Source of the DNA: Mangrovibacter phragmitis
Lineage (GTDB): Bacteria; Pseudomonadota; Gammaproteobacteria; Enterobacterales; Enterobacteriaceae
Reading direction: 5' to 3'
Length of the DNA: 64,000 nt
Assembly: GCF_001655675.1 (NCBI RefSeq)
Contig: NZ_LYRP01000001.1
Location: 868,001 to 932,000 of the forward strand
The position numbers were made by a program, and so were the translations under genes. Under the pieces are notes generated by a model. That model was not told the DNA's origin. It saw nothing but the letters and a program-made list of their open reading frames with translations, and did no database searches. Position 1 is the stretch's first letter. Each line of letters starts with the position of its first letter. Shown here one piece after another: positions 39,851 through 64,000 of this stretch.

Positions 39851-39936
39851 TCTGAAAGCCTCATTGAGTAATGAACTATCAAAACAGGACGTTAAATCTA
39901 GAAATTTCTTTTGATTTTCAATGGATAACGGCCAGA

Positions 39937-42183: not shown

Positions 42184-42245
42184 CGGCAATAAAATATCAA
42201 AGTGTAAAATTTGGATATTTATTCACTCCCAATCAATTCCATCTT

Positions 42246-42650: not shown

Positions 42651-42765
42651 GGATGATGGAAACAGGTACAAAGTCATTTGATGTAGTAAAATCATCTGTA
42701 AATCAGTTATGGCTCTCTTATTCCCATTTGTATGGTCACTTTCTATTGTTAATTAGGAACATATC

Positions 42766-43344
42766 ATGCTAGACCTCTGCTTAGGGTACTTAAAAGAAAG
42801 GATGAACCAGTCAATAAAGAATGTTTTTGATTTATCAAATGATTTAGTAATTGTCTCACCGCCTGTAGATCTGGATGGTTCTAAATCACACGAAATACAA
42901 AACAAGGTCCTCATTTTCATTAGCAATATCGAAAAAGACACGTTTTCCAAAAGTTACCGTCCGGACAACAATAGCAACAGAACAACCCTCTCTTCGAAAC
43001 CACTTTTTATCACGCTGACGGTTACCATCGCCGCTAATTTTAGCTCTGCCCATTATTCAGATGGGTTAAAAGTCCTGTCGCACTTACTGGCATTCTTCAA
43101 CCGCAACAGCAATTTCACCCACCAAAACGCCCCTGATTTACCTGAAAGTATTGAACAAATTAACATGGAGCTGGAATCCATACCGGGAGAGCAATTAAAC
43201 CATATGTGGGGTGTATTCGGCTCACACTACCTGCCATCATGCGTTTACCGGGTGAGAGCACTGGTACCAGACAGTGAAGCAATTCTGTCCCAGGTGGGCA
43301 ACATTCATATTTCCAATGCAGACATCACCAAAAGGAATAACTAA
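42766..43344 (+). CDS. DUF4255-family eCIS cap/terminator protein (Afp16/Pvc16-like)
   Basis: First gene of the contractile injection system. The 192 residues fit the DUF4255 (Pvc16 N-terminal) family: KPLFITLTVTIAANFSS, then YSDGLKVLSHLLAFFNRN and LNHMWGVFGSHYLPSCVYRVRAL. In Afp and PVC the homologue caps the tube and helps set particle length. An AGGA ribosome-binding site lies 8 bp upstream of the ATG. The next gene starts immediately after its stop. The low GC here contrasts with the thi region. No promoter is obvious; the decayed integrase lies just upstream. Confidence 0.8.
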   Translation: MLDLCLGYLKERMNQSIKNVFDLSNDLVIVSPPVDLDGSKSHEIQNKVLIFISNIEKDTFSKSYRPDNNSNRTTLSSKPLFITLTVTIAANFSSAHYSDGLKVLSHLLAFFNRNSNFTHQNAPDLPESIEQINMELESIPGEQLNHMWGVFGSHYLPSCVYRVRALVPDSEAILSQVGNIHISNADITKRNN

Positions 43345-44151
43345 ATGGCAGACTATCAATCCATCTTAAGCATTAAAGTGCAGCATGAGTATTACAATTC
43401 ATTTAAAGATGAACTGGCACCTTTTGATATCATTGCGGATGAAAATACAGAAATTTTATTCAGGCAATACAGTATCCTGGTGAAATCCAGACCAGGAACC
43501 ATACAACTTGTGGTGGATGCAGAATCATTTACCGATTTAGCTGCTTTAACCCAAGAGTTTAATCTGATGTTTTACCTCGTAAGTACCGACTCTGTAGTCA
43601 GAAGCATTACCGGGATGCCGAATGCATTTGATATTGCTAGTATAAATGCTGAGTTTACACAGGGAAACTCCATGCAGATCCGTGTTGACAACTGGATTAA
43701 TTGTGACCAACTCAATGAGTTCACACAACATCAAGGAACAACCATTTATAATAAAAATTTAATCGGGATACTTAGCATTCACATCCCAAAAAAGTTATTT
43801 AACTTAGATAAAAAAACCATCACTCTTCAATTCAACACCATATCAACTTACTGGAAATATTATCTTTGCTCATTAAATTCCACAGCCAATATCAACATAG
43901 CGGGCTCATCTGGTATAGCCAGTTCGTTTACTGAACAGGCCAATGAACAGATCTTAAATCAAACTGCACGGGTTTTTATTTCAGACCACCGAATACCCTT
44001 AATGAAAGTATGTGCAGAATCTTTTTCATTGTTAAGTGACAAGAAAACAATTGTTAAGTTACTTCCACTTCCTGATGCAAATAATACCTCAATACAACTT
44101 ATTGATGGTAGCATGCGTTTAACTTCTCATATCTATGTGGCCTGTAACTAA
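43345..44151 (+). CDS. eCIS-associated protein of unknown function
   Basis: A 268-residue protein starting MADYQSILSIKVQHEYYNSF, encoded directly after the cap gene with no spacing, so certainly co-translated. I do not recognise a named family, though proteins with this kind of start (a strand ending in H-x-Y/F) accompany DUF4255 genes in Bacteroidota-type eCIS clusters as far as I recall. No signal peptide, membrane helix or catalytic motif is seen. The beta-rich pattern would fit a structural collar or cap partner. The role is inference from position. Confidence 0.6.
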   Translation: MADYQSILSIKVQHEYYNSFKDELAPFDIIADENTEILFRQYSILVKSRPGTIQLVVDAESFTDLAALTQEFNLMFYLVSTDSVVRSITGMPNAFDIASINAEFTQGNSMQIRVDNWINCDQLNEFTQHQGTTIYNKNLIGILSIHIPKKLFNLDKKTITLQFNTISTYWKYYLCSLNSTANINIAGSSGIASSFTEQANEQILNQTARVFISDHRIPLMKVCAESFSLLSDKKTIVKLLPLPDANNTSIQLIDGSMRLTSHIYVACN

Positions 44152-44663
44152 CATTTTTTATAACCAAAAAATCATAGAATAGATACCAGGGAAAGCAGGC
44201 ATTGAGTCGGCACACACCATTGAAACCGAATGGCTCAACTCAGGGGAAACCACTATTTAACGCGGAAATCATTATATCTCACTGTATTTATTTAATAATT
44301 TCATTACTGATTTGGTGTTCTGGCAACAGAATAATCATCATTGACCAACCCACAGCTAAAGTTCTGGCAGAAGCATGTAAATCTCGCCGCCCGCCAACAT
44401 TCCCCAGTAAAACCCGGTCAATATTGCCTGCCAGATAACAAAAAAATGAACCACAGGGTATTATTAAAAAATTCCAAAACCTGATTAGATTTTATTGTCA
44501 ATCGGAGTTGACAGAAAACTGAGCAGACGCTATACCATGATTGTCAATAGTAAAATACTCTTAACTTGCCTGAATGCCTTTCTTAACAGTGTATTTCACA
44601 GTGTGTTTTCCTGTGTGTTAATCATGGGCATGGTTGCCAATCAATTACATGAAGGTCCAAACT
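44152..44663. other. Long gap between the cap pair and the sheath gene
   Basis: About 510 bp inside an otherwise compact cluster. A TTG-started 78-codon frame at 44202-44438 includes a hydrophobic stretch (HCIYLIISLLIW) but lacks a ribosome-binding site; a second frame at 44495-44701 runs into the sheath gene. I regard neither as established. A main promoter for the structural genes may lie here. Confidence 0.45.
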
Positions 44664-46223
44664 ATGGGCGTAATGAAAACACCTGGCGTATATATTGTTG
44701 AGAAGAATGCATTTCCAAACTCTGTTGTGGAAGTGGCTACTGCAGTACCCGCATTTATTGGATATACAGAAAAAGCGGATAACGGTGGCAAATCGCTAAG
44801 CAATCAAGGATGGCGTATTACTTCAATGTCAGAGTATCGGCAATATTTTGGCGGGGAGCCTCAACATACATTCGAAATAGCAGAGGTACCTGAAAACCCC
44901 GATACCAATATCAGAGAGGCATTTAAACAGGCAGGAAAAGCTTACCAAATAACCCAGTCGAATACCCGCCATCACCTTTACTACAGTATGTTACTTTTTT
45001 TTCAAAATGGCGGCGGCCCTTGCTATATCGTATCAGTAGGTAGCTACGCCGATGATATCGATGCAGATGTATTAAAAAACGGTATTTTGCCTCTCATTAA
45101 AGAGGCAGAGCCCACCATGCTGCTCATACCGGAAGCAATACAATTGAAAGAAGATGACTGTATCAACGTTGAGCAAGCCATGTTGGGGCACTGTGGCGGA
45201 AAAATGAAAAACCGTGTCGCAATTTTAGATATTTGGAACGGTTACAGAGACCGCCAGCATCCCGATGGTGACTGTGTTGAAAATTTCCGGTCTAAGCTTG
45301 GTATTAACTATCTCGATTATGCTTCTGCCTACTACCCCTGGCTCAATACATCAATTGTGCAAGACAGTGATGTGAGTTTTCGCAATGTCAGCAATATAGA
45401 TAAACTGGTCGAACTCCTGAATGCCGAAGTTGCCGCCATGTTCAGTGATTTAGATGGTCTTTCCCCGGAAGAGCTCAGTACGGGAAGTAACAAGTTAAGA
45501 GCGACACGCAAACAAGGCATGCTGGACGAAATTACTAAGTTAAGCGGCACAATATCCAGTTCGGATGCCGTTCTGCTGCATAAAACGCTTTCAAACATGA
45601 GCCCGTTATATCAAACCATTATGGCGGACATCAAATTCCAGCAAAATATCCTGCCACCATCGGCTGCTATGGCGGGTATTTACACCATGGTGGACAACTC
45701 CCGTGGAGTATGGAAGGCACCCGCGAATGTCAGTGTTAATGCAGTGGTCTCACCAACCGTAAATATCAGCGACGATGAACAAGAAGATTTAAACGTGACA
45801 ACCCAGGGAAAATCGATTAATGCCATCAGGCCATTCATTGGCGAAGGTACATTAGTCTGGGGTGCAAGAACGCTTGATGGCAATAGCCTGGACTGGCGTT
45901 ATATCAACGTCCGGCGCACGATGATTATGCTGGAAGAATCTATCAAACTCGCTTCAAAAGCCTATGTTTTTGAACCCAATGTCGCCAACACCTGGGTGTC
46001 TATGGAAAGTATGCTGGGTAACTTTCTGTATGGTATCTGGAAACGCGGTGGTCTGGCAGGGGCGATTCCGGCTGATGCCTATAATGTTAGTGTGGGTCTG
46101 GGTAAGACAATGACTTCCAACGATATCTTAGAAGGTATTCTGCGTATTACCGTGCTGGTAGCGATTGTCCGGCCTGCAGAATTTATCGAAATCACCTTCC
46201 AGCAGAAGATGCAGGAATCGTAG
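44664..46223 (+). CDS. eCIS contractile sheath protein
   Basis: Phage-tail-sheath family protein that forms the contracting outer cylinder. I chose the ATG at 44664 (AAGG 8 bp upstream), giving 519 residues that start MGVMKTPGVYIVEKNAFPN, the classic sheath opening, followed by ATAVPAFIGYTEKA. Sheath C-terminal features are VWKAPANVSVN (about 355), RPFIGEGTLVWGARTLDGN (about 395-413) and the domain with WRYINVRRTMIMLEESIK. In-frame upstream starts at 44634 and 44649 are less likely. Only one sheath gene is present, whereas Afp and PVC carry three paralogues. Confidence 0.93.
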   Translation: MGVMKTPGVYIVEKNAFPNSVVEVATAVPAFIGYTEKADNGGKSLSNQGWRITSMSEYRQYFGGEPQHTFEIAEVPENPDTNIREAFKQAGKAYQITQSNTRHHLYYSMLLFFQNGGGPCYIVSVGSYADDIDADVLKNGILPLIKEAEPTMLLIPEAIQLKEDDCINVEQAMLGHCGGKMKNRVAILDIWNGYRDRQHPDGDCVENFRSKLGINYLDYASAYYPWLNTSIVQDSDVSFRNVSNIDKLVELLNAEVAAMFSDLDGLSPEELSTGSNKLRATRKQGMLDEITKLSGTISSSDAVLLHKTLSNMSPLYQTIMADIKFQQNILPPSAAMAGIYTMVDNSRGVWKAPANVSVNAVVSPTVNISDDEQEDLNVTTQGKSINAIRPFIGEGTLVWGARTLDGNSLDWRYINVRRTMIMLEESIKLASKAYVFEPNVANTWVSMESMLGNFLYGIWKRGGLAGAIPADAYNVSVGLGKTMTSNDILEGILRITVLVAIVRPAEFIEITFQQKMQES

Positions 46224-46300
46224 ATGCGTACCTGATGTCTGTATTTGGTTAGCATTTAATATCGGCGAATATAACGTGGTTAGTTATTTAGGAGAGCCCC

Positions 46301-46771
46301 ATGGCAGACGATGGTTCAGCACAATCCCAAACTGTATGGCCCATGCCCAAATTTCATTTTGAAGTGAAATGGGACGGTGGTGCAGGCGCAGGAATGGTTT
46401 CCGCATTTCAGGAAGTATCAGGGCTTGATTCGGAAGCACAACCCATTGAATATCGCGCAGGTAATAGCCCGGTATTCTCAACTATAAAAATGCCCGGTTT
46501 GATAAAAAGCGGTAACGTCACGCTTAAGAAAGGTATTTTTAAAAGTGATAATAAATTCTACGAGTGGTATGCAAAGATCAAAATGAATACCATCGCCCGA
46601 ACTGCCGTCACAATAAATTTGTTAGATGAAGGCGGCAAGCCAGTAATGAGTTGGAAATTAAAAAATGCCTGGCCAACTAAAGTCACGGGTACTGACTTAA
46701 AATCAGATGGCAATGAAGTTGCGGTTGAAACCATTGAGCTCGCCCATGAAGGATTAGAAATCTCCGTGTGA
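46301..46771 (+). CDS. eCIS inner tube protein (Afp1/gp19-like)
   Basis: Hcp/gp19-fold protein whose hexamers stack as the inner tube. The 156 residues contain the family phrases FHFEVKWDGG, SAFQEVSGLDSEAQPIEYR and SGNVTLKKGIFKSD, then INLLDEGGKPVMSWKLKNAWP. An AGGAG ribosome-binding site precedes the ATG. It directly follows the sheath, the standard order in contractile tails. It is probably the major tube subunit because it is closest to the sheath gene. Confidence 0.92.
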   Translation: MADDGSAQSQTVWPMPKFHFEVKWDGGAGAGMVSAFQEVSGLDSEAQPIEYRAGNSPVFSTIKMPGLIKSGNVTLKKGIFKSDNKFYEWYAKIKMNTIARTAVTINLLDEGGKPVMSWKLKNAWPTKVTGTDLKSDGNEVAVETIELAHEGLEISV

Positions 46772-46847
46772 TTTCTATCACTAAGCAAGGGCTTACCCGT
46801 ACTCCAGAGGCAGGACTTATTATCCCGAACGAGTGAATAGTGAAATT

Positions 46848-47318
46848 ATGGAAAAAACCATGGGAGCAACTCAAGGTGATGGCGACTGGCCTCTTCCTGC
46901 TTTCTACTTTAGTGTTTCCATCAGTGGGTGTGCCGGTGATACAGCTTTTCAGGAGGTTTCCGGGTTAGAATTCAGTATAGAAACTGAAGACTATTTTGAA
47001 GGCGGTAATAACTTAGCTTACCACTTACCGAAATCAATCAAAAATAGCAACCTGACATTAAAAAGAGCGGTAACTGAAAAGACATCTAAGTTACTCACCT
47101 GGTGTCTGGGTATTTTAGATGATCAGTTTTCCAAACCGATCCCGACGAAAAGCGTGTCGATTAATTTACTAAATGAAAATGGTGTTACCTGTAAAAGCTG
47201 GACAGCATCAAATGCATACCCGGTAAAATTGAAGATGGAACCTTTTAATTCAACAAAAAATGACATCGCAATAGAAGAAATTGAAATTTGCTTTAACCAT
47301 CTGAAAAGGAACTTATAA
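46848..47318 (+). CDS. Second eCIS tube protein (Afp5-like tube initiator)
   Basis: A paralogue of the preceding tube protein: FYFSVSISGCAGDTAFQEVS, then GLEFSIETEDYFEGGNNLAY and NSNLTLKRAVTEKTSKLLTW with SINLLNENG and WTASNAYPVKLK. I chose the ATG at 46848 (156 residues); a GTG at 46833 and an ATG at 46860 are alternatives, none with a strong ribosome-binding site. In Afp/PVC the second tube protein starts the tube on the baseplate, and the position before the LysM hub gene supports that role here. Confidence 0.85.
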   Translation: MEKTMGATQGDGDWPLPAFYFSVSISGCAGDTAFQEVSGLEFSIETEDYFEGGNNLAYHLPKSIKNSNLTLKRAVTEKTSKLLTWCLGILDDQFSKPIPTKSVSINLLNENGVTCKSWTASNAYPVKLKMEPFNSTKNDIAIEEIEICFNHLKRNL

Positions 47319-47320
47319 CT

Positions 47321-47491
47321 GTGCCATTAGAGATAAGACAACTGGTCATTAAATCAAAAACAATAAGCGACGATAGTAAAGATGACTATGCGGGTACTGA
47401 TAATCCGGACCAGGCTTCAGACCAGAGCCCGGTAGAGAAAAGTATTGTTTATCAGCTTATTGGTGCTTCTGACGAATTAAGAGAAAGGTGA
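47321..47491 (+). CDS. DUF5908-like small eCIS protein
   Basis: A 56-residue frame with GTG start, AAGGA about 10 bp upstream, lying two bases after the tube gene. It begins MPLEIRQLVIKSKTISDDSK, matching the short DUF5908 pattern (MPIEIRELVIKA...) found between tube and LysM genes of Bacteroidota-type eCIS. The middle is acidic and probably disordered, and the end is IVYQLIGASDELRER. The role is unknown. It is easily missed because of its size and GTG start. Confidence 0.75.
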   Translation: MPLEIRQLVIKSKTISDDSKDDYAGTDNPDQASDQSPVEKSIVYQLIGASDELRER

Positions 47492-47516
47492 GTGAATTAC
47501 GTTGAGGACATAGGGA

Positions 47517-48170
47517 ATGGAAAGAATTATAATAAAATCAGTTACATCAAAAGGAAGTGTCGCACAAACATTCTCAGCCACGCTGAATCCTAATAGTGTT
47601 AAACATGTTTATGGTATTTCTTATACAAATACAGGATTACAACAACAGGGTGATATCTCGCCAAAGACAGCTTTTAAAGGATATCAAAGCGAAAAACTCG
47701 ACTTTCAGTTGCTGCTGGACGGAACCGGAGTTACGGGTAAAACAAGCACTGCAACCGTGCAGAAGCAACTTGCAACACTGAAAAAAGTGGTTTACGCATA
47801 CAATGGCGAACAGCATGAACCCTACCCGGTAGTAATAACATGGGGATCATCGGTAAACTTCAGAGGCCGCTTAACATCTATAAATGTAGATTACTCACTC
47901 TTTGATTCTTCTGGCAATCCGTTACGTGCCACAGTAGCACTTAGCTTTACTAAATTTTTAACCCAAAAAGAGAAACAGGCATTAAAGAAACAGTCTTCAC
48001 CTGACCTGACTCATATTATTGAATTTAAAGCCGGGGATACTCTCCCCATGTTATGTTATAAAATTTATAATGACAGTAGTTATTACCTTGAGGTTGCACG
48101 CGCTAATAACCTAATCAGTAGCAGGCAAATAGAGCCGGGCACCAAACTGTACTTTCCACCACTTGCGTAG
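47517..48170 (+). CDS. LysM-containing eCIS hub protein (Afp7-like)
   Basis: A 217-residue baseplate-hub protein. The N-terminal part (about 1-155) resembles the gp53/Afp7 fold, with ATLNPNSVKHVYGISYTNTG and KLDFQLLLDGTGV. The C-terminal part (about 165-217) is a LysM module: IIEFKAGDTLPMLCYKIY and ARANNL...IEPGTKLYFPP. In contractile tails this adaptor binds the hub and connects tube to spike. A VgrG-like gene follows after 14 bp, as in other eCIS. Confidence 0.88.
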   Translation: MERIIIKSVTSKGSVAQTFSATLNPNSVKHVYGISYTNTGLQQQGDISPKTAFKGYQSEKLDFQLLLDGTGVTGKTSTATVQKQLATLKKVVYAYNGEQHEPYPVVITWGSSVNFRGRLTSINVDYSLFDSSGNPLRATVALSFTKFLTQKEKQALKKQSSPDLTHIIEFKAGDTLPMLCYKIYNDSSYYLEVARANNLISSRQIEPGTKLYFPPLA

Positions 48171-48184
48171 CTATCAGGCTTATT

Positions 48185-49975
48185 ATGGCAATATCTCCTT
48201 CATCCAATAGCACTGGCGTAACAACCTTTACCATTAAGGTTAATGGTAATGCAATTGACAGTTCTATTGGCATTATATCAATTCATATCCATTACAAAAT
48301 AAATCATATCGCATCTGCAGAGATAACTATTAGCGACGGTGATATAGCCTCGCAGAAATTTGATGTCAGCGATGCAGAAACCTTTAAACCAGGTTCAACC
48401 ATTTCTATTTCTGCAGGGTATGAAAGTGATGAAAAGAACATTTTCGACGGAATTATTATTGGTCATGGTATAGAAATAGCATCTGATAACAGCACATGCC
48501 TTAATATTGTTTGTAAAGATCAGGCGATTGCGATGACGATCGCCAAACATAGTCAGTGTTTTCTTGCAAAGTCTGACAGCAATATAATCAGTAGCCTTCT
48601 TGCCAATTACTCCAGTCTGACAAGTTCCGTAGGGAGTATTACTGATCCCCATGCTGAGTTGGTTCAGTTCAACAGCACTGACTGGGATTTTATTCTCACT
48701 CGTGCTGAAGCAAACGGTTTTGTTGTCACCAATCAATCCAATAAAGTGACCGTCAATAAGCCTTCGGTAAGTGGTTCAGCTGCGCTCATTGTCACATATG
48801 GAACTGATTTAATGTCATTTTCAGCAAAAGTGGACGCACGAAATCAATTGAGTAGTGTAACGGCAACCGCATGGGATTCTACCAAACAAGATATGGTTAC
48901 AGGCACAGGCCCGGTTCAATCTATTTCGGGTCAGGGTAATTTCACCAGCCAGGATTTAGCTAAAGTATTGGGTATCAGTGATTATACGTTGCAAACTGCG
49001 TCAACCATCAGTTCAGACTCGCTCACGAGCTGGGCTAATGGCCAGCAAGTGAAAGCAATGCTGAGCAAAGTACGCGGAAATGTCACTTTTCAGGGAAACG
49101 CAGACGCCAAAATTGACAGTTTAATTGAACTGGCTGGGGTTGGAGAACGTTATAATGGAACACACTATATTGGCGGTATTCACCACCGTATTGAAAAAGG
49201 CCAGTGGATTACCACGGCGGAACTGGGAATATCACCAATGTGGTCGGCAGAGCACCGTGACATTGGCGCACCACCTGCCTCGGGGTATTTACCTCCTGTT
49301 GATGGCCTGCAAATCGGGGTGGTAACTAAATTAGATGAAGACCCGGATTCAAATTACCGGGTTCAAATTAAAATACCCATATTAAATAGTGAAGCTAATT
49401 TAATATGGGCACGCTTAGCATCCTACTATGCATCTTCTGGCTATGGTAATTTTTTCATACCAGAAGTAGGAGACGAAGTTATTGTGGGCTGTATCAATCA
49501 GGACCCTGGCAATCCAATTATTCTGGGCTCACTGTACAGTAGTAAAAATAAGATGCCAGAGGATCTAACGGCTGAAAACTACATCAAGAGCATCGTAACC
49601 AAAAGCAAGCTGAAAGTTATATTTGATGATGAGAATATTGTGATGACGTTACAAACACCTAATGGCAATTCCATCGTGTTAAGCGATAAAGGTAAATCAA
49701 TCACTCTGACTGATCAAAACAGTAACTCAATTAGCTTAGGGGAAAGTGGTATTAGTATAACCAGTAGTAAAGATATCACTATCACAGCGAAGAACTCTGT
49801 CAGCGTTGAATCCACCAGTAATACAACCATCAAGGCTACTGGTGATGCACAAATATCAGGTCTTAATGTTTCAGCACAAGCCAATACGGGGTTAACGTTG
49901 AAAGGAAATGCAACGGCTGAACTATCCTGTTCGGGGATAACGACCATTAAAGGTGCGCTGGTTAAAATTAACTAA
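48185..49975 (+). CDS. VgrG-like spike protein (Afp8-like)
   Basis: A 596-residue fused hub-spike. Residues about 1-360 correspond to the gp27-like hub, an OB-fold gp5-like module follows (about 374-460: GVVTKLDEDPDSNYRVQIKI and FFIPEVGDEVIVGCINQDPG), and the last 100 residues form a repetitive beta-helix needle (SIVLSDKGKSITL, SISLGESGISIT, DITITAKNSVSV). No C-terminal effector domain is fused. The PAAR gene follows 23 bp later, so the tip and spike are made together. Confidence 0.93.
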   Translation: MAISPSSNSTGVTTFTIKVNGNAIDSSIGIISIHIHYKINHIASAEITISDGDIASQKFDVSDAETFKPGSTISISAGYESDEKNIFDGIIIGHGIEIASDNSTCLNIVCKDQAIAMTIAKHSQCFLAKSDSNIISSLLANYSSLTSSVGSITDPHAELVQFNSTDWDFILTRAEANGFVVTNQSNKVTVNKPSVSGSAALIVTYGTDLMSFSAKVDARNQLSSVTATAWDSTKQDMVTGTGPVQSISGQGNFTSQDLAKVLGISDYTLQTASTISSDSLTSWANGQQVKAMLSKVRGNVTFQGNADAKIDSLIELAGVGERYNGTHYIGGIHHRIEKGQWITTAELGISPMWSAEHRDIGAPPASGYLPPVDGLQIGVVTKLDEDPDSNYRVQIKIPILNSEANLIWARLASYYASSGYGNFFIPEVGDEVIVGCINQDPGNPIILGSLYSSKNKMPEDLTAENYIKSIVTKSKLKVIFDDENIVMTLQTPNGNSIVLSDKGKSITLTDQNSNSISLGESGISITSSKDITITAKNSVSVESTSNTTIKATGDAQISGLNVSAQANTGLTLKGNATAELSCSGITTIKGALVKIN

Positions 49976-49998
49976 CTGTTTCACAGCGGAGTTAACTT

Positions 49999-50298
49999 AT
50001 GCCTTTTGCAGCGAGAATTACCGACTTACAAATCTGCCCAATGGCAACCCCCGGGCTTCCCCCAGTGCCTCATGTTGGTGGCCCCATCATAGGACCTGGG
50101 GTACCAACTGTATTAATTGCCAACCTTCCGGCTGCAGTCCTTGGTGATAACTGCACCTGCGTGGGGCCACCCTCTACCATCATTAAAGGTTCAGCTACCG
50201 TAATGATTGGCGGCAAACCGGCTGCCCGAATGGGAGACACAACAGACCATGGGGGAACCATCACTTTAGGGTGCCCCACTGTCATTATTGGCGGTTAA
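49999..50298 (+). CDS. PAAR spike-tip protein (Afp10-like)
   Basis: A 99-residue stand-alone PAAR protein that caps the VgrG-like spike. It shows AARITDLQICPM, HVGGPIIGPG, DNCTCVGPPSTIIKGSATV and ARMGDTTDHGGTI, with the His/Cys residues expected to bind the tip metal. No effector extension is present, in contrast to the PAAR effector at 40383. It lies between the spike and gp25 genes. Confidence 0.94.
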   Translation: MPFAARITDLQICPMATPGLPPVPHVGGPIIGPGVPTVLIANLPAAVLGDNCTCVGPPSTIIKGSATVMIGGKPAARMGDTTDHGGTITLGCPTVIIGG

Positions 50299-50322
50299 AC
50301 CCCAAAAGGATGCACGCAATTT

Positions 50323-50772
50323 ATGGCAAACGACAACGCGTTTTTAGGGACCGGCTGGGCATTTCCACCCAGATTTGATGGTCCAAATCATGACGTGGTC
50401 ATGAGCTCTGATATTGAGGATATTGAACAGAGCTTAACAATTTTACTCTCCACAACCCCCGGAGAGCGCCCCATGGTGCCTGATTTTGGCTGCCGAATTA
50501 ATCAATTTGTATTTGAAGAACTCACGCAGACAGTACTGACGCAACTGGAGTCCGAAATTCGTCTGGCAATTTTATTTTTCGAATCACGTATCAATGTGGA
50601 GGATATCTATATTTTACCAGAGCAGATTTCGGGGAAATTACTCATTCAAATAGACTTTAGTGTTATCACCACCAATACGCGTAGCAACATGGTTTATCCA
50701 TTCTATTTAAACGAAGGCACATTGATATCCTCTCAATTACTGCCACTACCTGATAAATGGGATAAAGCATAA
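50323..50772 (+). CDS. gp25-like baseplate protein (Afp9-like)
   Basis: A 149-residue GPW/gp25 family protein, the lysozyme-like-fold element that joins the wedge to the first sheath ring. It contains the signature ILLSTTPGERPMVPDFGCRI followed by NQFVFEEL. Its last base overlaps the start of the baseplate-J gene (TAATG), giving coupled translation. Confidence 0.92.
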   Translation: MANDNAFLGTGWAFPPRFDGPNHDVVMSSDIEDIEQSLTILLSTTPGERPMVPDFGCRINQFVFEELTQTVLTQLESEIRLAILFFESRINVEDIYILPEQISGKLLIQIDFSVITTNTRSNMVYPFYLNEGTLISSQLLPLPDKWDKA

Positions 50773-55567: not shown

Positions 55568-55575
55568 TCTGACGA

Positions 55576-57954
55576 ATGTCTAAGACTATTTCGAAAAAAC
55601 GCCATGGTGATAACCCGAATAGTTTTGAACATCTTTATCAACTTGGCCTGACGTATATCCAGCAGCTGAGTGGTCATATATGGACTGACTACAATACGCA
55701 TGATCCAGGTATGACTATCCTGGAGCAGGTTTGCTATACCCTGACGGACTTGATTTACCGGTGTGAGTTTGATGTCGCTGACTACCTGAGCGACACCTCC
55801 GGGAATATTGATTATCCGGCACATGGGTTAGCGTTAGCACAAGATATCATCCCGGCCTGCCCACAGCAGCCTGAGGAATACGAAGCATGGCTATTAACCC
55901 GGCTTCCTGAGCTCGACAAAGTGTGGTTTCGCTGGAGTGAAAACGCTCCGGGGCTTGGTATTTACACAATTAACGCCCAACTTAACCACTTTTACGCATT
56001 AAGCCAGTACCGTTCTGATGCCGGCAGCCATTCGTTTTATACCCAGCAACATGCCGCCCTCAGCCATATTCGCCGTGAGTTCTATCGTGTTCGTGCTCCA
56101 GGTGAAGACCTGGCAGATATTGCGTTAACCGGGCAGCGCCCCCTGACACTTACTGCAACCATTCATATTAGCGATGATGTTACTGATGTCACCTGGCTTA
56201 CTGCCAACCTCTACCACCGGATCAGCCTGTGGCTGGAATCGACTGTCCAGAACACACCTGTTTATGTGGTAAAAGAAGCGCTGCTCGCCGAAGATGGCAT
56301 TCAACAAATCGGGCAACTGCAATTTACCCAATACAACGATAATGCAGGCCACAGCACACCCATTCCTGTTGAAAATATTGCGCCCTTTTCTTATTTGAAA
56401 CTGCCGGAGTCTGCGGCTGATTCCGGTATTGAGATAATCCAGTTTCAGCACCCGGTGAATATCGACTACGCAGATCTTGCTATTCAACTTGAACAGATCC
56501 AATACTTGCGGCGTGCAGAACGGCTCAACACCACCAACGCGCCCATTCTGCCCGCGGGGCGCTATTTTGATTTCAGCCGTTATGAATCTATTCAAACCCT
56601 CTTCCCCAGAAACTACCATCTGGCACCGGGAATACCGAATCATTACAACGCGCAACAACAAGCTCAGCGCCATCAGCTACGCGGTTTTTTACTACTGTTT
56701 GACCAACTCATGGCCAATTTCTGTGATGACATAGCAGGGTTAAACACACTGTTTTCGTTGTCATTAGACTCAGAAGCAACCTACCACACGCATCTGTTAC
56801 AGGATGATGAGTTTCATAATATTGACCAGCATTATCCGCAAAATGCCCGTGCCCGGCTGGAGCACCTGCGCAAGAAATTTGATGATTACCCGGAGAGAAA
56901 AAACCGCATTTTTAATTATTTTCTTGCGCTTTACAGTGAGCGTTTTCCGGATTTTCTACACCGCCAGTTTAACCCTTATTTTTCTGCCGAAGAGGTGGAA
57001 AAACAGCTACTGAAATATAAACAGGCTTTTATCCTGAATATAACCACGATGACTAACGGCCGGGGGCTTGGTGATAATTTACTCCAGCCAGAGCACCAGG
57101 GCGGTTACAGCCAGCGCCTTTCGTTACTCATTGGGCTGTTTCCTCATGCGCTTTCACCTCTGGGCTACACCCATGCCATTACTCAGCATGCACTGGACCT
57201 GGTACCCAATGAACCCTGGTGCCAGAGTGATATTGGCAAGAAAATAGTGCAATTGCTCCCCCCAGAAATACTGGCAAGCCTGCAACCTGTGGCGGATAAC
57301 AACACGCAAGAAGGCGTGGATGAGGAGCAGGCCCGGAAAATGAAGTTAGCCATGCCCCTGTTCAGTGCGCAGACACTGCCCGACGTATTGCTGCAATTGG
57401 GTATTGACAACCGCAGGTACCGCCTGCTTCACCGTGCGGAACATAGTGATTACCAACTGTTTTTTAATGCCAGCGGTGAAGACCCACAGCAGTGGTTATA
57501 TATTGCCAGCCACAATAACAAACAACAGCTCACTCAGTTTTGCCACCAACTACAACGCTGGCTGATTCAGTTAAACCAAAACAGTGAAGGGCTGTATATT
57601 GTCGAACCTATTTTACTGCGTACCGAGGAAAATAACGCGTCATGGCGCGATTACGCCAACCGGGTAACGGTGGTATTTCCCGGCTACACCGCGCGCTTTA
57701 GTAACCTGAAGTTTCGTGAACAGGTTGAGCAATTAGTCATTGAAAACAGCCCGGCACACCTGCTGGTTCAGTGTCAGTGGCTTGATTTCTCTGCGTTCAG
57801 CCAATTTGAAACGCTGTATACCAGGTGGCGGCAGGCCAAATCCAGAGCATTGCAACGCAGAGAAAACCAACCGGAATGCGATGCCATTGCCAAACAGTTA
57901 TACCCGCTGATTCAACCCCCTCAGGATGCAACAAATGAGGCGTTGAAGATATGA
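55576..57954 (+). CDS. Baseplate wedge-like protein (Afp12-type)
   Basis: A 792-residue protein with the phrase WTDYNTHDPGMTILEQVCYT at about residue 35-54; the DPGxTxLE motif is shared with baseplate J proteins, and the following segment continues LTDLIYRCEFDVADYL. It is therefore a second wedge-type baseplate subunit, the Afp12 position. Further C-terminal parts are helical with no motif I recognise. It overlaps the tape-measure gene by four bases. Alternative roles such as fibre attachment cannot be excluded. Confidence 0.7.
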   Translation: MSKTISKKRHGDNPNSFEHLYQLGLTYIQQLSGHIWTDYNTHDPGMTILEQVCYTLTDLIYRCEFDVADYLSDTSGNIDYPAHGLALAQDIIPACPQQPEEYEAWLLTRLPELDKVWFRWSENAPGLGIYTINAQLNHFYALSQYRSDAGSHSFYTQQHAALSHIRREFYRVRAPGEDLADIALTGQRPLTLTATIHISDDVTDVTWLTANLYHRISLWLESTVQNTPVYVVKEALLAEDGIQQIGQLQFTQYNDNAGHSTPIPVENIAPFSYLKLPESAADSGIEIIQFQHPVNIDYADLAIQLEQIQYLRRAERLNTTNAPILPAGRYFDFSRYESIQTLFPRNYHLAPGIPNHYNAQQQAQRHQLRGFLLLFDQLMANFCDDIAGLNTLFSLSLDSEATYHTHLLQDDEFHNIDQHYPQNARARLEHLRKKFDDYPERKNRIFNYFLALYSERFPDFLHRQFNPYFSAEEVEKQLLKYKQAFILNITTMTNGRGLGDNLLQPEHQGGYSQRLSLLIGLFPHALSPLGYTHAITQHALDLVPNEPWCQSDIGKKIVQLLPPEILASLQPVADNNTQEGVDEEQARKMKLAMPLFSAQTLPDVLLQLGIDNRRYRLLHRAEHSDYQLFFNASGEDPQQWLYIASHNNKQQLTQFCHQLQRWLIQLNQNSEGLYIVEPILLRTEENNASWRDYANRVTVVFPGYTARFSNLKFREQVEQLVIENSPAHLLVQCQWLDFSAFSQFETLYTRWRQAKSRALQRRENQPECDAIAKQLYPLIQPPQDATNEALKI

Positions 57955-60900
57955 ACCAATTGCACAAGATTAATCAGGCCAGTATCGAATTCGACTTCAC
58001 TGAATTTTCAGATGCGGAGACTTTTGAGTTGCGCGCCGCTCAGTGGGTCACCCAACAATTACTTCCGGTAATTGAAACGATATTCGATGATGTGTGTCCT
58101 GAGCATCAAACCCTGGTTATCGACACACTGACACTCGACCTCGGTGAATTTAACTCAACAACGTTTTACACACAGGCACCTGAAAAACTCAAATATCTGC
58201 TACAAGAAAAACTGCGCGCTCAACTCAGAACAGCTACACAGAATTCCTCCAGTCTATGGACCACGAGCGCAAAAACAGGGGATAACCAGGCACACCCTGA
58301 ACCCAATACAATGGTGGTGTTAAGCCAGCAGCAACTGCGCTGGAGTGAACTCTGGCAGTTCCTCAACACGGGCATTCTGCCGTGGACTTCCAGGGGTGAA
58401 CAGTCACTGGAGTCACTCGGCCTGGTTAATGAATTGACCGGCCATATCGCGCAATTCATTCATGCACTCAATAATGCACGCCAGCCTGAACAGATACTAC
58501 GCCGGGTGGTTCTGCAATTTCCCGCCTCCTGCATTGAGGCTTTATTTGCGTCGTTAACAACCGCGTATCAGTGGGAAATAATGACGTTTTTATTAACGCA
58601 CCCCAAAAGCCTGACAGGTGAATTACACACTCGCCTGGCACAGGCCTGGTACTCTCAATTTATACAGTTGTTAGCGCAGCACAATTTAATGCCTCTTCGC
58701 CCTTATTGGGCAAAAATTATGCGCCAGTTTGCTCCACAACTGATTAACGCTCTCTGGCAACGTCACACAGACAGCCAACTGCCCGGCAACCTGGTGCGCG
58801 ATTTGAATGAAACTGAGCGCCTGTTACTGCTGAGCGTACTGACGCCGCAAGAATATCCTTTTCTGGCCGCAATATTGCAATCACCTGATTTGTGGAAAAA
58901 AACGAGCCAGCCTGGCAACAGGCAGCCCGCACACCCGCTCGCACAGGCCACAAACGCCGGTGAGCCCAACACGGCATTACCCCCATCACAAGTTCACCAG
59001 CAGGTGTGGCTTTTTACACTCCACTACCTGCTGGTTGACCGTGGCAGTGCATTCAATCGCCAAAGTTATATGTCCGGCCTGATTATCCATATGGCAAACG
59101 CACAAAATCAAAGCGCGGATACCCTGCTGGCATCGTTGATTTCCGCAATAAGCAACACCACCACAGACAGCACACTGCAAGGGCAATTACTGGATTTACT
59201 CCTGACTATTCAGCCCACAATGACTTCTCATGCAGGGTCAAAACCGCCGGAACCAGCCGAAACAATTTTACCCATTTCAGCAATTCAGGAGACAGACCGT
59301 GATAACACAAACCAGCCAATAAACGCTGACCAGTTGCACCATATCAATGAACTGGTGGTTGCGCTCTGTTCAGGTACTGAAAACCAACTTCTGCAGTTTT
59401 GGCCCGGCAACTCGCAAACATTCGCGGCCTTACTACGTTGGTGCGGACAACTTGATAATGTGCGCCGCCACTGGTCTGAAACATACCCGGATAAAACCTT
59501 ACTGGCGTTAGTGGACGTACTGGAGCCCCTTGCAACTCTGGCTGTACGTATTCTGGTTGTGGAAAAACGCCTGTTGGCAGTGAGTCAACCTGCCACCACG
59601 TCAGAGCGTGCTGCAGATGTTCGTTTATGGCGCTACACCTTCGCTTTTCTTATTGTGGAAAAAAGTGGCGCGTTTAACCAAAAGAGTTATCTCCAGTACG
59701 TAATACAGAGGATGGCAGCCCGGCTAAATGTCTCTTACACCAGCCTGTTAGCTGCGATGCTGGAAAACATAGCCACTGCCGGTGATTTCTTTCTCCCGGG
59801 CACGACAATACGCAATGTTCTGGAAGCGCTTGTTGTGGCAACTCACCCGCAAACTACAACAGACAACAGTGGTGAGCACTCCTCTCTTCTGTATTCATTA
59901 CCGCAGCCGGATTCTCTCACAGTTACACAACTGGCTGATATTGAGGACATCATCGCCACGCTGCAACGGGGTGAGCAACCCTTGTTGGGCAGTCACATTA
60001 ACCCGTGGCGACATGATTATGGCCAGCACCTGCTACAAATTATTCGCCAACAAGGGTGTAACCCTTCATTGTTGAAGCGCTGGGTAACCCATTTCGCTGA
60101 TTCAGCCTTATTCACCATTACCGCCATCCTCAACCCTCATGCCACAGAGACAGTACGCAGACTTATTGATGAGCGCCAAACAATAGACACAGCCATTCAG
60201 CATGCGTCAGGCCAGGCTGGCTCAACCCATGCCCGCAACGCGTTATGGGAGTTGACGCTACATTATTTAATTAGCCGCCGTGGTAGTGAATTTAATCAGT
60301 ACCAATTTTTACTCAGCATTACCGAACAGCTTTCCGCCCGTTACCAAATTAATGCTGAGGTATTAATTAATGAATGGCTGAAGCTGAGTGGTCGTGGTTT
60401 CTTGTGGCGCCAACAGTTGACTGCGCTTGCCACATATCACAAACACCCACCTGTAGCAGCGCCTCAACTGCTCGGGGAGATTCAATCCGCCACGCAAACG
60501 GTCTTAAGTGAGCAACAGAGAACCCTGTTACAACACTATGCCACTATCAACGCCACCAGGCTGGCAACACAATTGCAAACCTGGAATACGGCGCAGCTGG
60601 CACGCATGGTAAACCTCATGCAACCGCAGCTAAGTGAGCGTGTCATTGTTCTGCTGCCTTTGCTGCTGTCCATCGTTCATGAATTTAAACTGGCTCCTCA
60701 CTGGTTTTATCAACGGTTGTTAAGCGCCGACTGCCCCACAACACCCGAACAATGGTTGCAACGTTTATTGCACCAGATAAACAAGTACACGGCATCGCAA
60801 GACCTGGCGCATTATCACCAACTGGTACAATGCGTTCTCAGTAGTAATGACATTCATCAGGATCTGGCTGAGCGCCGTCGGTGGTTATATAGCATTGCCC

Positions 60901-62084
60901 CCGAAGAAGACATCCGGGATAAGTTACAACAGTGGCTCGATAGTAAAGCGCCAGTTCCTGAACAGGCTTTACGGGCCTGCTTAGCGTCTTCGGCTGCATA
61001 CAAACAGCCTTTGATACACTGGTTAAAGCGTATGCTGACCAACCCGCCCGTTCTACAACGCTGGCTTGATGCGTTGTCACCCGAAACGCATCAGGCACTG
61101 TTGTTACCTACTGTCACCAGCGCCACCCTCTCATTACTGGCGTTACGCCATGCGTTTTGCCAACTTTTTGAATCCCCAAAACAGGGGGAACGGCTGTTCT
61201 GGCAAACGCTTTATCGCCAGTTGTGGTTTAAAGGCGTCACATTGTCCGGCAGCGCATTAATCAACCACTTGCTGATTGAGTTAAACCAACTATGGGTCAC
61301 TCACCCGGAGCAGGGAAAAGCATTACCCTCCGCCAAAGTGGCCGGGCTGATTGAACGTTTATTGCCATCAGTATCGTCTGCCTCTTTGCGAAATACATTA
61401 ACCCAAATTGCGCGCCAGACTGAGCCTCGCACACCAGAAATACCGCTATCAGTGGCGCAATTAAATCACCAGCAACCAGAAATTAAACAGCTGGTTGATG
61501 CTCTTGAAATACCCGGCAAAACGGTGAAGAAAAGCCCGGCATTTCTCCGGGAAAAGCCCCGGGACGACGCACAAGCATGCAAGGAACCGGTGACCATACA
61601 CAATGCGGGGTTAGTCATTGCATCTACCTGGATCCCGGTTTTATTCCAGCGGATAGCGCTTACTGACGGGAATAAATTTGTTGATATTCAGGCCCAATAC
61701 CAGGGGCTGTTCTGCCTGCAGTGGATGACAAACCATACCAACAACGCGCCTGAATACCAGTTACTGCTGAATAAAGTTTTGTGCGGCATTGCGCCATCCT
61801 GGCCTGTACCGCAACAAGTCCCTTTACCAGATGGGGCAGAAACCGTTATCGACGGTTTGCTCACCGCCATCATCGCCCACTGGAAGGTCTTAGGAAACAC
61901 CTCGATAAGTGGGTTGCAATCTACCTTTATTCAACGTGAAGGTCTGCTCACTTTCACCCCCAAACACTGGCAACTGAATATCATCCCAGGCACGTTTGAC
62001 ATGCTGCTCGACCACCTGCCCTGGCGTTATCAGACCATTAAATACCCCTGGATGGACAAACCCCTGTTTGTTTCATGGCGTTAA
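57951..62084 (+). CDS. eCIS tape-measure protein built of about 207-residue repeats
   Basis: A 1377-residue protein of the contractile-injection-system tape-measure type found in Bacteroidota-like eCIS. The N-terminus shows QASIEFDFTEFSDAETFELR and IDTLTLDLGEF, followed by the FLNTGILPW signature at about residue 138. Three related blocks begin near residues 352 (WLFTLHYLLVDRGSAFNRQS), 560 (WRYTFAFLIVEKSGAFNQKS) and 766 (WELTLHYLISRRGSEFNQYQ), so the unit is about 207 residues. The protein is almost wholly alpha-helical. Repeat number may set tube length together with the cap. Confidence 0.8.
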   Translation: MNQLHKINQASIEFDFTEFSDAETFELRAAQWVTQQLLPVIETIFDDVCPEHQTLVIDTLTLDLGEFNSTTFYTQAPEKLKYLLQEKLRAQLRTATQNSSSLWTTSAKTGDNQAHPEPNTMVVLSQQQLRWSELWQFLNTGILPWTSRGEQSLESLGLVNELTGHIAQFIHALNNARQPEQILRRVVLQFPASCIEALFASLTTAYQWEIMTFLLTHPKSLTGELHTRLAQAWYSQFIQLLAQHNLMPLRPYWAKIMRQFAPQLINALWQRHTDSQLPGNLVRDLNETERLLLLSVLTPQEYPFLAAILQSPDLWKKTSQPGNRQPAHPLAQATNAGEPNTALPPSQVHQQVWLFTLHYLLVDRGSAFNRQSYMSGLIIHMANAQNQSADTLLASLISAISNTTTDSTLQGQLLDLLLTIQPTMTSHAGSKPPEPAETILPISAIQETDRDNTNQPINADQLHHINELVVALCSGTENQLLQFWPGNSQTFAALLRWCGQLDNVRRHWSETYPDKTLLALVDVLEPLATLAVRILVVEKRLLAVSQPATTSERAADVRLWRYTFAFLIVEKSGAFNQKSYLQYVIQRMAARLNVSYTSLLAAMLENIATAGDFFLPGTTIRNVLEALVVATHPQTTTDNSGEHSSLLYSLPQPDSLTVTQLADIEDIIATLQRGEQPLLGSHINPWRHDYGQHLLQIIRQQGCNPSLLKRWVTHFADSALFTITAILNPHATETVRRLIDERQTIDTAIQHASGQAGSTHARNALWELTLHYLISRRGSEFNQYQFLLSITEQLSARYQINAEVLINEWLKLSGRGFLWRQQLTALATYHKHPPVAAPQLLGEIQSATQTVLSEQQRTLLQHYATINATRLATQLQTWNTAQLARMVNLMQPQLSERVIVLLPLLLSIVHEFKLAPHWFYQRLLSADCPTTPEQWLQRLLHQINKYTASQDLAHYHQLVQCVLSSNDIHQDLAERRRWLYSIAPEEDIRDKLQQWLDSKAPVPEQALRACLASSAAYKQPLIHWLKRMLTNPPVLQRWLDALSPETHQALLLPTVTSATLSLLALRHAFCQLFESPKQGERLFWQTLYRQLWFKGVTLSGSALINHLLIELNQLWVTHPEQGKALPSAKVAGLIERLLPSVSSASLRNTLTQIARQTEPRTPEIPLSVAQLNHQQPEIKQLVDALEIPGKTVKKSPAFLREKPRDDAQACKEPVTIHNAGLVIASTWIPVLFQRIALTDGNKFVDIQAQYQGLFCLQWMTNHTNNAPEYQLLLNKVLCGIAPSWPVPQQVPLPDGAETVIDGLLTAIIAHWKVLGNTSISGLQSTFIQREGLLTFTPKHWQLNIIPGTFDMLLDHLPWRYQTIKYPWMDKPLFVSWR

Positions 62085-62095
62085 GGACGAAATCA

Positions 62096-64000
62096 ATGAT
62101 AAACCCTGAATTCAGTCTGTTATCACTTATTCGTAAACCGGTACAACAGTTCTCCAGGCGTATTCCTTTCTGGTTATTGTGCTGTGGGTTGTATGTCGGG
62201 CTGCCAGGCGGCTTCCCCATGCCCGGTTATTCGGCCCAAAACAACCTGGTCGAACCGCTGAAGGCATATAAAACATGCAGCCAGCAGTTAACACCGAATG
62301 ATGACCGTTACCTGGGGAGAGTCATTCAAACCCAGCTCGCGTCTCTTTACCAGAAAAATGAAGACTTTCAGGCGCAACTGAAAAAAAACAGCAGGCCGCT
62401 CACCGACGGCATCGTTGGCCCAACAACCCGCTACTGGCTGGACTATTTCTGCGGTGAATTTGCGTTCAGCGCGCCCGCGTCATCGACCAACCAGCACCAG
62501 TATTTTATTGAATCTTTACTGATTGACTTAAGCCGCGCAGCTCAGCTAAATACACTATTCCCGACATGGCGTACGGTAATAAAGCCGCCGGAACTGCTCC
62601 ATTTAACGTCTGCCGAAATAGTGAAAAGGCTCACCCAGAGCACGCCACATGCTGATAACGGTGGAGGGACATCCACACCCGCAACCTCACCGGGTGAGGA
62701 CAGGCCAGACAGTGATACCGAAGCCTATTATTATCAACTGACAGAAAATGATTTCGCCAGCCTGGCGTTACGCCAGACCGTGCTGGAGGAATTTGCAAAA
62801 TTAGAAAAGCAACAATTTGACCAACGCAGCCAACTTTATAATCAACTTAGTGGGTTATTTACTCAGTTGAATATTCCCATCACCCCACAACTCAATCTGG
62901 ATAATTTAATTGACTCTTACACCATAGAGGTACATCAACCCAGCACCAGTTCGACAACCAGTACCAGCACCAGCCAAATTACGAGCAGTGCTAATAATGA
63001 TGCCAGTACCGGTAATAATGACACCAGTACAGGGACTTCAGCCGCCAATACAGATAGTAAGAACACCACTGCAAACAACACATCCGGCACGACCGACAAG
63101 GTAAACGCTGACAGCAACCAGACCGGTACGGAGAATTCAAACACCACCACGCCTAATACATCCAATCAGGTGGTGGAAACCAGTACGCAAAGTAACACGG
63201 AAACAACCGCACAACAGTTAGTGTGGCAGGTGAATTCTGAAGAGCTCAGTAAAACCATCAAACAATCAGGTATTACCGCATTATCTAAAGAAGAGTTGAA
63301 AGCACTGACACCACTGCAGGATGAAGTTTTCCCCAGCCTTTATTTATTAAAAACAGCCGTAAAAGCATCAGGTATTTCACCGGCCAGCCTGCAGGACAAA
63401 GGCGTATTTACCTTAGCGCGGAAGACAGGCCTCAGCCCTGTTCATGCCATCCCTATGCAATGGGTGGCCCCTCCGGACTGTAATTGCCAGGATAGTGTCC
63501 GCTCGGTATTTAATGTGGGTACCTTTTATGGCTTTTACCCGTACTGGCAACATCTTAGTAAGGGGCAAACTCTTGATTTTAGCCGTCTGGATCGTATTGG
63601 TTATATTGGAGCGGTAATGAAGCCTGAAGGGAATGGCAATACGTTAGTGCTGCCACAAAACTGGTTGGCCGACCCAAGGTTTAGCCAGTTTATTCAAACC
63701 TCCCACCGTTATCGCACAAAACTCGATTTGGTAGTCACCACACCACGAAATTTGTCGCGAGCCCAACTGACTGCGCTTTTTACAGACGACATGGTGAAAC
63801 GCCTGGTTGCATCCGTCACTACCCCAATGGATAAATACTTAATTAACAATGTGCAACCCTGGATAAGTTTTGGCATAGAAACTGTTCCAGCCATGGCTGA
63901 TGGTATTACTTTGGATATCGACCTTTCTGTTTTAAATACTCCGGAAAGCCAGCAGGCCTTCTTTTCGTTTCTGGATAAGCTAAAGATTGCATTACGCCAG
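62096..64000 (+). CDS. Membrane-anchored protein with PG-binding-like and degenerate GH18-like regions (3' end beyond window)
   Basis: An open frame of 635 residues that runs off the window. It has a basic N-terminus and hydrophobic segment (about 25-47, signal anchor or signal peptide), then a peptidoglycan-binding_1-like stretch ending SRPLTDGIVGPTTRYWLDYF (about 100-120). A helical part follows, then a Ser/Thr/Asn-rich linker (about 281-371), and a C-terminal region starting GTFYGFYPYWQHLS at about residue 477. That phrase and DGITLDIDLS (602-611) resemble strands of the GH18 chitinase barrel, but the catalytic Glu of DxxDxDxE is Ser (S611). The start is 11 bp after the tape-measure stop with AAGGA upstream. 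Its function is unknown; cell-wall anchoring or glycan binding is plausible. Confidence 0.6.
   Translation, partial: MINPEFSLLSLIRKPVQQFSRRIPFWLLCCGLYVGLPGGFPMPGYSAQNNLVEPLKAYKTCSQQLTPNDDRYLGRVIQTQLASLYQKNEDFQAQLKKNSRPLTDGIVGPTTRYWLDYFCGEFAFSAPASSTNQHQYFIESLLIDLSRAAQLNTLFPTWRTVIKPPELLHLTSAEIVKRLTQSTPHADNGGGTSTPATSPGEDRPDSDTEAYYYQLTENDFASLALRQTVLEEFAKLEKQQFDQRSQLYNQLSGLFTQLNIPITPQLNLDNLIDSYTIEVHQPSTSSTTSTSTSQITSSANNDASTGNNDTSTGTSAANTDSKNTTANNTSGTTDKVNADSNQTGTENSNTTTPNTSNQVVETSTQSNTETTAQQLVWQVNSEELSKTIKQSGITALSKEELKALTPLQDEVFPSLYLLKTAVKASGISPASLQDKGVFTLARKTGLSPVHAIPMQWVAPPDCNCQDSVRSVFNVGTFYGFYPYWQHLSKGQTLDFSRLDRIGYIGAVMKPEGNGNTLVLPQNWLADPRFSQFIQTSHRYRTKLDLVVTTPRNLSRAQLTALFTDDMVKRLVASVTTPMDKYLINNVQPWISFGIETVPAMADGITLDIDLSVLNTPESQQAFFSFLDKLKIALRQ

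Follow-up and report, generated by a model that had tools for sequence, protein, structure and literature searches.

The window analysed here (the whole stretch of 64,000 nucleotides, G000:C1:868001-932000 of the 4.94-Mb host genome; G, C and L numbers denote genomes, contigs and loci) comes from Mangrovibacter phragmitis, a member of a genus of Enterobacteriaceae, and carries in its last third the operon of a contractile injection system (CIS). Judged by its genes, the locus is a complete CIS of the extracellular CIS (eCIS) superfamily, on the side of the SalCis, AlgoCIS and tCIS systems, in a Mangrovibacter-like enterobacterium. The machine itself is of an already known kind; what is new is an N-terminal tag of about 50 residues (MYxQxEKPKENKSRxVANxxxQKK...FVDNRPEAxAQRKL) common to the cargo-like genes of this CIS clade. 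The complete system comprises two convergent modules, and the tag most likely addresses cargo to the tube by way of an AAA+ ATPase, a reading in which we have fairly good confidence and which draws on gene content, synteny, the association of the tag with the CIS, its N-terminal position, the unrelated bodies behind it and the toxin domains found on some of these proteins. Loading of cargo by means of the tag, its recognition by the ATPase, docking or release of the particle by a GH18-like membrane protein and the target are points that we infer.

An N-terminal tag on cargo-like genes

The tag was first seen by inspection, as the letters DNR near the starts of open reading frames (ORFs) beside several CIS loci; DNR occurs within the first 80 residues of 43 ORFs, many of them unrelated. 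The tag profile was built from 16 aligned segments (alignment A5), with the exclusion of DUF4157 proteins, which have a related start, and of one divergent ORF (L104). The consensus of 46 tagged proteins (a subset of the matches, with L198, L209 and L212 dropped and long proteins cut at the locus end) reads MY.Q.eKpKENkSrsVANsvsQKks..ks.f.FVDNRPEavAQRKLqe.annsp, and an exact DNR, usually at residues 35-37, is present within the first 60 residues of 39 of them. Clustering at E<=1e-3 sorts the bodies of these 46 proteins, taken from residue 61 on, into 34 groups of up to 12 members.

The position of the tag was examined in 35 loci, namely the best 30 matches of the clade search and five of a same-family control (both described below). 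In 34 of them it lies at the start codon or at most 5 residues away and no more than 59 codons from the upstream in-frame stop, this distance being 4 codons or less in 21 loci; the lone exception is a weak match of the family control, 193 codons in. The matches at 11 loci from a sample of the host's order (L203-L213) also stand near the first start of the frame. A looser form of the motif is found at 19 of 1861 ORF starts and at none of the 533,361 internal residues of those ORFs, a count run on the ORFs where the tag was first seen and including seven DUF4157-type proteins among the 19.

The tag is associated with this CIS clade. The clade search set consisted of 51 genomes (the host and 50 of 80 sheath relatives fetched), of which 34 match the tag profile at E<=0.01 (103 matches) and 33 at E<=1e-4 (87 matches); a few matches of the search are partial or in frames with stops. 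Training rows came from 12 of the 51 genomes, and 21 of the other 39 match at E<=1e-4. The same-family control comprised 60 genomes including the host; none of the 59 others (22 of which are under 1.5 Mb) has the tag at E<=1e-4, and one internal match was found at 0.006. In the order sample eight of 394 genomes have the tag, and all eight have the clade sheath, which makes 8/14 clade-sheath genomes versus 0/380 of the rest, 13 of which have a distant sheath only (Fisher 2.2e-13, or 6.3e-12 without the host, uncorrected for relatedness; the clade sheath was defined after the list had been seen, as E<=1e-130 for 13 genomes plus a contig-end fragment in G139). The match in G099 is the DUF4157 protein. 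A phylum sample of 299 genomes gave two matches, both in already known genomes, and none in 13 genomes with a distant sheath or in 282 without a sheath. A plasmid search with one 51-aa tag query returned no match, and the tag was absent from the Parabacteroides and Aureibacter plasmid stretches examined. The tag has no counterpart among PDB chains at E<=1, it lies outside every above-cut-off Pfam or NCBIfam match in the tagged proteins scanned, and no paper bringing the motif letters together with CIS was found in the open-licence PMC literature.

Pfam domains above cut-off, including deaminase, endonuclease and peptidase families, are present in five of the 21 distinct tagged non-DUF4157 proteins scanned (Table 1), while NS_2 (L203, L205), glycosyltransferase (L180) and GNAT (the 437-aa protein of the host) matches fall below cut-off. 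Tagged genes are not confined to the CIS locus. Two of the five tag matches of the host lie on contig C5, which is not the CIS contig, and one unlinked tagged protein (L215, 393 aa) is encoded near genes that by eye resemble proA and proB and scores 35.7 bits against a toxin-deaminase cut-off of 29.6. G163 has tagged genes at 0.21 and 0.27 Mb and its CIS at 1.89 Mb of one contig, and in G134 they lie up to 0.85 Mb from the CIS. A common tag would free cargo genes to move around the genome.

Several observations weigh against the tag as the cargo address of this clade. It is undetectable (E<=0.01) in 17 of the 51 clade-sheath genomes of the search set, as well as in six of the 14 in the order sample and two of the four in the phylum sample, so that a third or more of the clade shows none; the tag-negative members include a betaproteobacterial branch, which may use a diverged tag. 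Besides, 16 of the 21 tagged proteins scanned, including four of the five of the host, show no domain above cut-off, and the tag could mark chaperone binding or regulation instead of loading. In favour of the proposed role stands the ATPase family (E<=1e-80), which is found in 47 of the 51 genomes with this sheath, the four without it being all tag-negative. In the betaproteobacterial branch (for example L067, L071, L072, L065, L069, L089, L091) the match to the GH18-like protein is mostly weak and the ATPase is present in all except L072.

The cargo module and the structural operon

The preliminary description of this DNA had called for a look past the end of the window, and there an AAA+ ATPase gene was found, followed by a gene for a 148-aa DUF4157 protein and three cargo-like genes (328, 240, and 437 aa); a CIS without ATPase, as suggested at first view, was therefore wrong. 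In the host this module is convergent to the 15-gene operon, from which it is separated by an 8-kb xylose cassette (xylR, xylA, XylE-type transporter, phosphoketolase). The cassette was considered as a part of the CIS and rejected, since it is missing from this site in Mangrovibacter plantisponsor, where the GH18-like gene directly adjoins a cargo gene. Four of the five syntenic relatives, as well as one further locus from a short contig, have the ATPase gene between the tape measure and GH18-like genes; in G099 it is convergent to the operon, as in the host.

In the proposed mechanism the ATPase would recognise the tag on newly made cargo and thread it into the growing tube, in parallel to the Photorhabdus virulence cassette (PVC), for which loading of cargo by the AAA ATPase Pvc15 and N-terminal signal peptides is described (PMC11495950). 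The tag appears to agree in position and length with the PVC-type signal peptide (the N-terminal 50-70 residues, which PVC cargo needs to be loaded); Pvc15 is described in the same source as having tandem AAA domains, whereas Pfam shows a single AAA domain in the 462 residues of the host ATPase. Homology among the signal peptides of eCIS lineage Ia is presented there as rare (Evans and Waterfield 2024, PMC11495950). An N-terminal region predicted to be disordered and similar among cargo is described for AlgoCIS (PMC8894135), and a machine-learning study states that a conserved eCIS loading signal sequence was not detected (Danov et al. 2024, PMC11297309).

Table 1. Features of the CIS locus and its surroundings, and domains of tagged proteins. 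Positions without prefix are those of the window.
Feature	Position	Strand	Basis
Cap protein, Pvc16_N type, 192 aa	42766..43344	+	PF14065 101.6 bits; first gene in five relatives too
Cap adaptor, 268 aa	43345..44151	+	profile vs PDB 9r9n_C ("SalCis16b - cap") E 2e-86; AlgoCIS cap adaptor E 2e-6
Single contractile sheath, ~519-529 aa	44634..46223	+	PF17482 above cut-off, PF04984 below; PDB 9r9h_T 1022 bits
Inner tube 1	46301..46771	+	PF06841 166.7 bits (T4 gp19-type)
Inner tube 2	46833..47318	+	PF06841 120.8 bits (T4 gp19-type)
DUF5908-like protein, 56 aa	47321..47491	+	PF19265 26.0 bits, just under the 27.7 cut-off
CIS_tube adaptor, 217 aa, LysM-like end by eye	47517..48170	+	PF19266 137 bits
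VgrG-like hub/spike, 596 aa	48185..49975	+	PF04717, TIGR01646 above cut-off; PDB 9rce_F 1086 bits
PAAR tip, 99 aa	49999..50298	+	PF05488 85.4 bits; 74-81% identity in five relatives
Baseplate gp25, 149 aa	50323..50772	+	PF04965 79.4 bits
Baseplate J-like protein, 1321 aa	50772..54737	+	PDB 9rce_A 2289 bits; AlgoCIS 7aeb_G E 4e-65
Fibre-like protein, 276 aa	54737..55567	+	63% mean column identity, nine sequences; conserved as structural parts are; residues 1-40 weakly like tCIS All3316, E 0.004
Second large baseplate protein, 792 aa	55576..57954	+	weak TIGR02243 below cut-off; position kept in five relatives
Tape measure protein, 1377 aa	57951..62084	+	PF19268 CIS_TMP 323 bits
Membrane-bound GH18-like protein, 907 aa	62075..64000, on to 64798 (L003:12076-14799)	+	PDB 9r9a_B 1276 bits
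Xylose cassette	L004:1004-8665
DUF4157 / eCIS_core protein	L004:12579-13025		49.8 bits vs cut-off 22
AAA+ ATPase, 462 aa	L004:13112-14500 (G000:C1:945124-946470)	-	E 9e-202
Toxin-deaminase (tagged)	L149 and host L215		Pfam above cut-off
AID/APOBEC-like deaminase (tagged), Symbiopectobacterium	L150:788-2356		NAD1 37.6 bits; SNAD4, APOBEC3 also above cut-off
NS_2 endonuclease (tagged)	L030		Pfam above cut-off
M91 peptidase (tagged)	L172		Pfam above cut-off

Gene families of the operon were assigned by Pfam and NCBIfam scans against the family cut-offs and other parts by PDB sequence matches (Table 1). Fifteen genes in one direction had been described at the outset, among them one sheath, a DUF5908-like gene, a GH18-like gene and a repeat-built tape measure, and all of this is borne out: the ORF listing gives 15 co-directional genes on the + strand, unbroken from cap to GH18-like protein, the last of which stops 798 bases past the window, and the repeats of the tape measure are visible as shifted, overlapping matches. 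The core parts of an eCIS (cap, sheath, tube, gp25, baseplate J, VgrG spike, tape measure) are clustered here, and five genomes, representing four further families of the host's order, share the same gene set and gene order. TTG is the mechanical start of the sheath ORF; its true start is probably an internal ATG, the conserved part of the alignment beginning near 44664. The whole host genome has one sheath match at E<=1e-30 (with scores for three of the seven candidates of a first look), and no near match to window positions 44634-50772 was found in E. coli. No family match above cut-off was obtained for the three baseplate or fibre-like genes and the 268-aa gene. The latter, the cap adaptor, changes faster than its neighbours and is the most variable operon gene in the comparison made, with identities of 81% in M. 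plantisponsor, 45-53% in two other enterobacterial relatives and 19-23% in five relatives of other families.

It is very improbable that the locus is part of a type VI secretion system (T6SS) or a prophage remnant. VgrG, PAAR, and gp25 are common to T6SS, and the TssM family IcmF_C has six matches above cut-off in the host genome (C12:71850, C13:7698, C9:5201, C1:75254, C1:1277445, and C22:4, of which the last two are truncated by contig ends and may belong to a single gene), so that several T6SS loci exist elsewhere in it. However, sheath, cap, tape measure, and ATPase are all of CIS types, and no capsid, portal, terminase or T6SS membrane genes are present among the neighbour genes scanned. 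Two of the IcmF_C matches share the contig of the operon, at distances of ~345 and ~835 kb, and the others are on different contigs (TssJ and TssL had no separate search).

Two genes with PAAR domains flank the system. Beside the ATPase module, L004:15059-16971 encodes a protein with PAAR and S-type pyocin domains, whose homologue in M. plantisponsor (L148:13837-15528) appears split over two frames. On the other side, at 40383-42183, a PAAR-domain protein with a hydrophobic C-terminus precedes a 145-aa protein with hydrophobic segments, and the two have the look of an effector-immunity pair; a partial integrase-like ORF (38900-39850, by eye) lies near this pair, which is not found at this site in M. 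plantisponsor. Both PAAR-effector genes (40383-41780; L004:15367-16971) were considered as cargo and rejected, given that neither has a tag match in the genome-wide search. They are likelier T6SS effectors, in view of the lack of a tag, the absence of the stretch that holds 40383-41780 from this site in M. plantisponsor and the several T6SS-type IcmF_C matches in the genome.

Descent and relation to known systems

The system had at first been described as Bacteroidota-like, a label that fits its gene content, which is common with Bacteroidota CIS, but not the ancestry of its sheath. In a tree of 51 sheaths (FastTree, midpoint rooted) the host sheath groups with those of Mangrovibacter, Enterobacteriaceae bacterium 89, Kluyvera, and Symbiopectobacterium, in a single enterobacterial clade (support 1.0) placed inside a clade of Vibrio, Marinomonas, Dickeya, and Oceanospirillum, and the four Bacteroidota sheaths branch apart. 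By this tree the system is gammaproteobacterial. A Parabacteroides plasmid carries a sheath 54.6% identical to that of the host in the order cap, unknown, sheath, two tubes, and some architectures of the Bacteroidales injection systems (BIS) are described as having a single sheath, as here (PMC7394362); the Bacteroidota systems share gene content with the host CIS, yet form a separate sheath branch.

The closest sheath is that of M. plantisponsor (97.5%), in which the genes that follow the module show 93-99% identity and a PAAR gene 87%. Its operon also stands behind a thiM-like gene (named by eye), without the genes found at 36670-42700 in the window; these are probably outside the CIS, as they are not at this site in M. 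plantisponsor. Transfer by way of the neighbouring island had been suggested and was not shown, M. plantisponsor having the CIS at the same site without the island genes. The locus of Kluyvera genomosp. 1 (L031, 21.5 kb) looks eroded: only the sheath, one tube, and VgrG were matched (genes <90 aa left out), a probable PAAR is hidden by an antisense ORF, the cap and large baseplate genes have no match in the stretch, and the genome gave no GH18-like, ATPase or tag match.

The nearest solved system is SalCis (PDB 9R9H, 9R9I, 9R9N, and 9RCE, which contain one identical sheath sequence; the name is given on chain C of 9R9N), for whose structures no paper was found in the open-licence PMC literature. 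Its sheath, VgrG, baseplate J, cap adaptor, and GH18-like membrane protein match those of the host over nearly their full length, whereas its sequence is different, its host probably so, and the PDB sequences have no tag match. Entry 9R9A, known here from its sequence, apparently belongs to SalCis as well by its entry code and gene, so the solved set would include the GH18-like gene. Both SalCis-type features, a sheath of this clade and the GH18-like membrane protein, are present in the host. AlgoCIS (Algoriphagus) and tCIS (Anabaena) come next in sheath, VgrG, baseplate, and cap adaptor; the host CIS has a membrane GH18-like protein, whereas the words transmembrane, glycoside or glycosyl hydrolase are absent from the main text on AlgoCIS. 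The antifeeding prophage (Afp) and PVC of eCIS lineage Ia resemble the host CIS as overall machines. Nevertheless, the layout is distinct from theirs, as had been noted: they have three sheath paralogues (Afp2-4, Pvc2-4) and lineage Ia is characterised by two or more, against one in the host.

The GH18-like membrane protein and the mode of action

The operon would build the cap, sheath, tube, baseplate, spike, and tape measure, together with a last product that, from its predicted segments, is an integral protein of the inner membrane conserved along with the CIS. An alignment of seven homologues of this GH18-like protein shows an invariant DG.T stretch, two cysteines, and conservation at the C-terminus; a simple hydropathy scan gives three C-terminal hydrophobic segments in all seven and an N-terminal one in six, that of the host copy being under threshold. 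No Pfam family matches the part of the protein inside the window. The active-site pattern of GH18 enzymes is DxxDxDxE. In its full form this pattern is present in none of the seven homologues, which have strings such as DGITLDIDLS instead; weak or no catalysis is therefore expected, and hydrolysis is doubtful. A CIS on an Aureibacter tunicatorum plasmid includes a protein annotated as glycoside hydrolase 18 (Pfam GH18 E 1e-18) with the same layout. By layout, motif, and operon position it would be the Bacteroidota counterpart of this gene; hhalign of the GH18-like family against it is weak (probability 4.9%, E 0.008). A query with the single protein matches seven of the 394 genomes of the order, host counted.

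The assembled particle would either meet the inner membrane via the GH18-like protein or leave the cell by lysis. The first of these, an injector whose baseplate is held at the producer's inner membrane and which would fire from within, or across the producer's envelope, is for us close to balanced in its prospects. By analogy it recalls the thylakoid-anchored tCIS, one of the structural kin, for which a baseplate extension and a fibre-like protein that has a membrane helix are described as the anchor (PMC8894136), and CisA of Streptomyces, described as a membrane protein needed for firing and not part of the particle (PMC12237407). The docked arrangement is in line with the three C-terminal segments, with the lack of a variable fibre gene in the operon and with matches of the seven-sequence GH18-like profile in the genomes of 41 out of 50 sheath relatives, although some of these matches are weak or partial and the nine genomes without a match include all four Bacteroidota, in spite of the Bacteroidota counterpart.

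The second, a free eCIS assembled in the cytoplasm, released by lysis and bound to target cells by its fibres, is a serious possibility, if a somewhat doubtful one; here the GH18-like protein would only help the exit through peptidoglycan and the tag would be a quirk of a cargo family. It agrees with the GH18-like fold, with a peptidoglycan-binding-like N-terminal motif (by eye) and with the DUF4157 protein next to the ATPase, a type described as typical of eCIS toxins (PMC8213781). On the other hand, the incomplete active-site pattern speaks against hydrolysis, and the sole fibre-like operon gene equals gp25 and the CIS_tube protein in conservation (mean column identity 63%, versus 45% for the cap adaptor), where a receptor-binding fibre would be variable (no search for fibre genes elsewhere was made). 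Docking has a slight edge over release by lysis, given the conservation of a dedicated membrane protein and of a lone fibre-like gene that varies as little as the small baseplate parts. An extracellular rather than membrane-anchored device, the earlier expectation, is unproven: the last operon gene encodes an integral membrane protein conserved with the system.

Deaminases and nucleases among the tagged proteins could act on bacteria or eukaryotes. A broader proposal, tentative and rather doubtful as a whole, is that groups as far apart as Enterobacteriaceae, Bacteroidales, Desulfobacterota, and SAR324 use one conserved N-terminal tag to direct many unrelated toxins, among them AID/APOBEC-like deaminases and products of far-off genes, into a CIS docked on the producer's inner membrane via a non-catalytic GH18-like protein.

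The cargo of CIS is mostly guessed from gene neighbourhood. A recognisable tag allows genome-wide lists of cargo, unlinked genes included, and makes the choice of cargo testable, just as the conserved membrane GH18-like protein makes free versus docked action testable.

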